Positions 15,159 through 15,307 of a stretch of DNA of 30,381 bases are shown here, one piece after another. The notes under the pieces were generated by a model. It was not told where the DNA came from and made no database searches. It was given only the letters and a program-made list of their open reading frames with translations. The stretch comes from a virus: the IMG/VR virus record IMGVR_UViG_3300044712_000275, positions 1 to 30,381 of that record. One strand, written 5' to 3'. The translations under genes were made by a program, and so were the position numbers. How positions within the stretch are numbered: position 1 is the first letter of the stretch; each line of letters begins with the position of its first letter.

Positions 15159-15307
15159 TGCATGACTGCAGCTGCAGAATAAAGCAGGGATAAAGCCACC
15201 CTGTCGGGCTACCGGTGCGCATGTGTGGGTCACTTGGACTTACCTATGCGTGAAGGCTGGGATAAAACCGCTCAGTCGAGATTTGGTGTCTGCTCTATGG
15301 TCATGCA
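15159..15307 (+). ncRNA. Self-closed ~149-nt RNA with twin pseudoknot-like motifs
   Basis: TGCATGAC (15159-15166) pairs exactly with GTCATGCA (15300-15307). Inside lie two related motifs 72 nt apart: 15185-15210 and 15257-15282, each of the form GGGATAAARCC then CYC then GTCGRG. In copy 1, CAGGG pairs with CCCTG and the loop AGCC pairs with the following GGCT, an H-type pseudoknot. Copy 2 pairs CTGGG with CTCAG (one wobble); its second stem is weaker. Between them CGCAT pairs with ATGCG, continued by GGT/ACC. No known family recognised. It begins at a CTACAACATT element. Confidence 0.65.

Follow-up and report, generated by a model that had tools for sequence, protein, structure and literature searches.

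A compact, putatively pseudoknotted RNA element of uncultured phages, probably duplicated and circularly permuted in the tRNA array of a crAss-like phage fragment

By following up a repeated sequence in the window, i.e. the whole 30,381-nt stretch of viral DNA analyzed here, we found that a 149-nt domain within it very probably contains a compact, phage-borne RNA element whose design, as read from sequence comparison, is P1-U(R)AAG-AC-P2-AAURAAACCG-P2'-(P3)-(A)GUGUNACCGG-NN-P1', where P3 is optional. The element can be as short as ~53 nt and was found in about 30 uncultured phage contigs, once per record. Absent from Rfam 15, it shows strong covariation and is located at ssb/uvsX junctions and in tRNA or tRNA-like arrays. 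An earlier note had argued from the repetition of a fold in the domain that the RNA is functional, and this idea is strongly supported by other phages, in which the fold is found again with invariant loops and a stem that covaries.

The window, a phage record of 30 kb in IMG/VR, is a fragment of a crAss-like phage, going by its genes: it carries a crAss-like terminase (phrog_6681, 4.5e-66), Crassvirales and Bacteroidota phages come out as its top relatives in BLAST, and it also encodes PhoH and MoxR/VWA-type genes. The latter lie at 24611-27833, where a MoxR-type AAA ATPase gene and, after it, a CobT/VWA-domain gene make up a chaperone-like pair in this phage. The Mib_herc2 domain is best known in eukaryotic ubiquitin ligases; in the window it was identified in a phage protein at 17286-17774 (Pfam PF06701, 6.8e-10). 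Between a gene ending at 15143 and one starting at ~16105 lies a non-coding tRNA/tRNA-like array of ~960 nt. The 149-nt domain forms its 5' end, with a tRNA-Asn and two tRNA-like shells further 3', and the features of this region are as follows.

15159-15307, plus strand: the 149-nt domain, with closing helix TGCATGAC/GTCATGCA at 15159-15166 / 15300-15307
15184-15210, plus strand: copy 1, a P2-type hairpin GCAGGG-AUAAAGCCA-CCCUGU
15211-15223, plus strand: ACCGG-UG strand and then the P1' strand CGCAUG; conserved, and loop partner of copy 2
15217-15251, plus strand: arm B (GCGCAUG...UAUGCGU), loop-capped, read as P1 of a circularly permuted copy
15252-15277, plus strand: copy 2, GAAG-G-CUGGG-AUAAAACCG-CUCAGUC, with an intact core of the family hairpin
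15315-15395, plus strand: a second conserved RNA element (the core), directly 3' of the domain
15486-15558, plus strand: tRNA-Asn (att)
15632-15774, plus strand: tRNA-like shell, whose acceptor, D and T arms are of tRNA-Leu type and enclose a large non-canonical insert
15826-15853, plus strand: possible hairpin, proposed earlier as a third structure; judged unrelated and not conserved
15991-16103, plus strand: tRNA-like shell 2, with large inserts replacing the anticodon and variable arms (Rfam tRNA, 39.9 bits)

ARAGORN made no call for the shell at 15632-15774, and by ARAGORN and Rfam neither this shell nor that at 15991 forms a complete cloverleaf with an ordinary anticodon arm, Rfam matching one of them only, with large inserts. 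Comparable shells were found in other phage loci (L007:14771-14975, L007:15186-15322, L009:17529-17660, L010:11979-12135 and L010:12598-12736). In these and in the shells of the window the tRNA-Leu-type arms are AGTCAGGTGGCGGAAT...CAGGTTCGAATCCTGTCCTGACT and the anticodon domain is replaced by large, highly variable inserts, with an insert even in the D loop in the L007 shells. A further stretch, module B (AATGAGAAAGAGATGCTCAGAGTCTTT...AAGACTTAAACAATG), is conserved between two such shells (window 15778-15990, L007:14976-15180, L010:12137-12340 and L005:14150-14355), ends in TCAGGGTGAGG immediately 5' of the next shell, and looks like another structured RNA.

The sequence GGGATAAARCC indeed occurs twice in the domain, 72 nt apart, with starts at 15187 and 15259. 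It is part of a wider repeat with the same 72-nt spacing (15181-15206 versus 15253-15278), in which 20 of 26 positions are identical, a level that 500 dinucleotide shuffles of this 342-nt region never reached. The second half of the proposed motif, GTCGRG, dropped out, as it is not conserved across the wider family. The exact 8-bp helix said to frame the two copies exists, extends to 10 bp if G.U pairs are allowed, and encloses an inner helix (GCAGA 15174-15178 / UCUGC 15289-15293), but an exact helix of this kind spanning 100-200 nt was found in 16.5% of the shuffles, and a 10-bp helix with G.U pairs in about half of them. Since same-length helices are so common in shuffled sequence, the closing helix is by itself no evidence, and the MFE z-score of the domain is only -1.40.

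Each copy had also been credited with a stem and a crossing pairing. The hairpin folds in both, and in copy 1 a crossing pair is possible between AGCC (15194-15197) and GGCT (15207-15210). With respect to the closing helix, copy 1 is in canonical order, and its loop is degenerate, reading GCCA in place of ACCG, and is able to pair with GGCU instead. For copy 2, the downstream crossing pairing does not hold up: the partner there (GGT, 15285-15287) gives 3 bp only and was rejected in favor of a better one upstream, so that the predicted crossing pair is CGGU 15213-15216 / ACCG 15267-15270. The strand that supplies CGGU, at 15211-15223, contains GCUACCGGU, which is conserved in the relative L204.

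Close relatives of the window were obtained via PhoH, and the domain was located in the relatives L204 and L005 via a small gene downstream of the array; a search through the flanking proteins at 13539-14435 and 16396-16881 found no relatives. At L204:3255-3374 and L005:13931-14036 the domain is found at the same site between matching flanks (TTGCA...TGCATAAGCTTG), and holds one hairpin, GGRAURAAACCGCC, followed by UACCGG. The pattern is consequently present in close relatives, where its absence would have spoken against the earlier note, but as a single copy.

A third structure of the same design, without the primary sequence, had been placed at 15826-15853. It fits a generic H-type descriptor but lacks the RAAG, AURAAACCG and CCGG signature, and it has no counterpart at the equivalent place in L007, L010, L204 and L005. 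Furthermore, a single-nucleotide loop crossing a 5-bp stem, as it would need, is sterically doubtful in an H-type pseudoknot, and we ruled the structure out as a family member. The literal motif GGGATAAARCC...GTCGRG had two matches in IMG/VR, both within opposite-strand protein genes of unrelated GC-rich phages, which we attribute to chance.

The wider family emerged when 2.9 M viral contigs in IMG/VR were scanned for the conserved hairpin TRAAGNCNGGNATNAAACCGC. Out of 44 contigs matched, ~28 were non-coding and had CCGG together with a matching P1, and these, taken with L204 and L005, amount to 20 distinct sequences. Matches within long ORFs and without CCGG were dropped, and so was the L207 match, which appears to be coding and has no RAAG/P2/CCGG context. 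P1 is wholly different among groups, e.g. GGGGAGU/ACUCCCC, UGUGGUUGU/ACAACCACA, GGUAUGAAU/AUUCAUACC and AAGAUUAU/AUAAUCUU, and all nine of its pairs have two-sided changes, while one P2 pair covaries. Over the whole structure there are 55 two-sided cells, compared to 20.6 +/- 3.1 in shuffles, and the paired fraction is 93%, compared to 39-47% when the structure is slid. The three pairs of the CCG/CGG crossing pair are invariant in the 20 sequences, so covariation speaks neither for nor against the ACCG/CCGG pairing, which in L204 could extend to 5 bp. Loop invariance, for its part, is partly imposed, because an exact motif was the seed of the search that gave most of the matches. A covariance model (R2) matched 17 records, each of them exactly once, with 53-90 bits for the members used in building it and 33 bits for the divergent L302 (a MAG contig), in which the loop AAUAAAACCG is unchanged and P2 is wholly different (ACAAU/AUUGU).

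With a descriptor that admits both the canonical strand order and a permuted one, 19 distinct sequences matched canonically in the 2.84 Mb searched and the window alone matched in permuted order; 227 Mb of shuffled sequence gave no match. The idea that the domain is merely a chance repeat with chance pairing among ordinary tRNA spacers draws on the framing helix and MFE, both unexceptional alone, and has next to nothing left to recommend it in view of the shuffling result for the repeat, the homologous domains in L204 and L005, the covarying family and the empty shuffled sequence; for the hairpin it is already refuted. No Rfam 15 model, including those for known self-cleaving ribozymes and riboswitches, matched the element at gathering score or at E<=10. 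A search of 295 Bacteroidia genomes, run without a positive control, found no copy, and when the RNA region and the L204, L252 and L254 elements were compared with named phages by BLASTN, only tRNA or short chance matches came up. Neither this element nor the adjacent core was found described in the literature covered, which consisted mostly of non-subscription papers and included no preprints.

In the window the hairpin core, RAAG-n-P2-AURAAACCG-P2', is intact at 15252-15275, but the canonical order of the CCGG strand and P1 was not found, and the canonical covariance model scores the region at only 14.5 bits. What was found is the permuted order, with CCGG+2 nt-P1' and P1-U-RAAG junctions, a 7-bp P1 and a 6-bp P2. 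Copy 2 is preceded by UAUGCG-U-GAAG, while ACCGG at 15211-15215 is followed by two bases and then CGCAUG, and the strands CGCAUG and UAUGCG pair as arm B. The junctions are exactly those of the canonical members, i.e. ACCGG and 2 nt before P1', and P1 and U before GAAG. Copy 2, which in this order takes in 15245-15277, is therefore probably a circular permutation in which arm B serves as a capped P1 and the ends lie at the position of P3, a reading that has a single example sequence. Most simply, the second copy is explained by tandem duplication and circular permutation. A single element of the L204/L005 type would have been duplicated in tandem; the inner P1' and P1 strands would then have come to pair as arm B and the outer strands to close the domain, with loss of the second CCGG. 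If this is true, the window shows, as few natural cases do, how an RNA element comes to be circularly permuted.

Most members are located, in sense, precisely in the gap between a gene for a gp32-like SSB and one for a UvsX-like protein, and thus 3' of ssb and 5' of uvsX. Approximately 14 distinct copies fill this intergenic region, with a Shine-Dalgarno-like stretch ~10 nt after P1'. The element in L266 lies one base after the CCA of a tRNA-Thr, and tRNA-like T arms follow those in L250, L204 and L005. The surroundings in L262, L264, L279 and L302 are of another or an uncertain kind. As for other RNAs nearby, a freshwater-1 RNA (RF02979, L266:74-135) adjoins the element in L266, and GOLLD RNA shares a contig with the pseudoknot element (L264:7332-7723) and, elsewhere, with the core (L186:2193-2606).

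Both contexts are boundaries of transcript units and the element usually occurs once per record, which favors a processing or insulating role in cis, a reading that we consider plausible though somewhat short of probable. The element would fold co-transcriptionally, ACCG in its loop would pair with the CCGG strand, and the resulting compact structure would then act in cis to divide a polycistronic phage RNA into its units, parting the ssb mRNA from the uvsX mRNA, or a tRNA or tRNA-like unit from its neighbors. The most plausible form would be a self-cleaving ribozyme or a structure that stops or guides nucleases. Self-cleavage specifically is a putative mechanism that we regard as unlikely, and slightly more speculative still is a new class of small phage self-cleaving ribozyme, acting between ssb/uvsX cistrons and tRNA-like units, of which the window would be a permutation intermediate with two cores sharing one CCGG. 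Should the element cleave or block nucleases, it would represent a new class of RNA processing device.

The ssb-uvsX leader and tRNA-array contexts would, however, also suit an operator bound by a protein, or a stability element. A phage protein, e.g. SSB, UvsX or a repressor, might bind the pseudoknot and control translation, as suggested by the ~14 leader copies with their Shine-Dalgarno-like stretch and by T4 Ssb (gp32), which is described as an mRNA-specific autogenous repressor (PMC535899). Such an operator would be shared between phage recombination and tRNA-like transcripts. We see it as a serious contender but not a likely one, given that the element is situated 3' of ssb and that the position of an SSB-type operator, with the pseudoknot 5' of the regulated ssb, was not found among the ssb-uvsX members. 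Copies in tRNA or tRNA-like arrays, moreover, have no obvious start codon to control, and neither ssb nor uvsX adjoins the domain in the window. That the repetition serves the binding of a repeated ligand or protein, as had been suggested, was not borne out: the element normally occurs as one copy, and, with a second copy seen in the window only, ligand binding through repetition is improbable. A metabolite riboswitch aptamer, in tandem in the window, would suit the small size, the invariant loops, the variable P1 and the frequent leader position, yet it appears very improbable in view of the copies in tRNA arrays without a gene to regulate, the normal single copy and the lack of any Rfam riboswitch match even at E<=10.

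The cis-acting module that we favor has a neighbor in the window that is itself conserved. This core, outlined as GUGUUG-UUCCCUUGAGAAAGGA...CAACAC with a loop-loop hairpin, consists of a GUGUU/AACAC helix, a hairpin UUCC-CUUGAGAAA-GGAA, a variable insert and a hairpin GAGGG-GUUCUCU-CCCUC, and its loops can pair (GAGAA 15328-15332 / UUCUC 15383-15387, with the loop UUCUC(A) complementing (U)GAGAA). Its exact 16-mer was found in at least 120 contigs, nearly all of them with the flanking GUGUUG/CAACAC helix, and a covariance model gave 112 matches in 100 loci searched; covariation is weak, as the search motif left little free to vary. It had no Rfam match. Occurrences include the window (15315-15395), L084-L203, L212:2726-2801, L210 and L211. 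One flavor often leads into tRNA-like shells, as in the window, and another (type G) is part of a longer RNA in Cellulophaga phage phi14:2, whose hairpin stem is changed to CAC/GUG, and is also found in two MAGs. Three small hypothetical proteins are annotated under the type G core RNA of phi14:2, and as this is a cultured crAss-like phage, the core is directly testable. In L084, L183, L186, L187 and L202 a different closed domain of ~145 nt (TTGATAGTGG...CACTATCAA) is found upstream of the core, in the place that the 149-nt domain takes in the window, which indicates that the slot upstream of the core is modular.

These observations bear on a further reading, in which domain, core and shells would be one transcript with tertiary contacts and the element a structural module of a large ornate RNA, comparable in role to parts of GOLLD or ROOL. 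The domain abuts a core that is conserved in more than 100 contigs with loop-loop pairing, other phages, too, have closed domains 5' of the core, and the array context is that of GOLLD and ROOL (PMC12286853). Even so, the element is found without the core, at ssb-uvsX sites and in L204 and L005, and the core is usually found without the element, which makes them separable modules; together with the lack of a GOLLD or ROOL match, this leaves the large-RNA reading rather doubtful.

Among known RNAs, GOLLD (RF02032) and ROOL are similar to what is seen here in being large structured phage RNAs beside tRNA islands with loop-loop pairings, although their covariance models found no match in window 15100-16200 (E<=5) or in the relatives' RNA regions tested. 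In the HDV fold the 5'-most strand pairs just after P3. The outer stem of the element is instead nested, pairing the first strand with the last in all members, and mapping onto the HDV-like/theta fold (a nested double pseudoknot with a catalytic C in J4/2) consequently failed, in line with the absence of an Rfam match. HDV-like theta ribozymes, found at phage tRNA ends, nevertheless resemble the element in that they are small, pseudoknotted, from Caudoviricetes of the gut and one way to separate transcript units (PMC10879173); unlike them, the element is not known to self-cleave. The pseudoknot operator of T4 gene 32 mRNA (PMC535899) likewise places a pseudoknot in the mRNA of a phage recombination gene, but the element is 3' of ssb and 5' of uvsX and occurs in tRNA arrays as well. 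In H-type pseudoknots, as in the element, a hairpin loop pairs with a strand outside the hairpin; canonical members differ in mostly having this strand beyond a variable P3, with everything closed by P1, while in the window the strand is upstream. Lastly, circularly permuted hammerhead (types I-III) and twister (P1/P3/P5) ribozymes are known, and tandem duplication has been discussed as a route to permutation for both proteins and ribozymes (PMC10085705). The element differs from these ribozymes in having no Rfam sequence or structure match and one permuted example only, and is like them in presenting the same core with different stems open.
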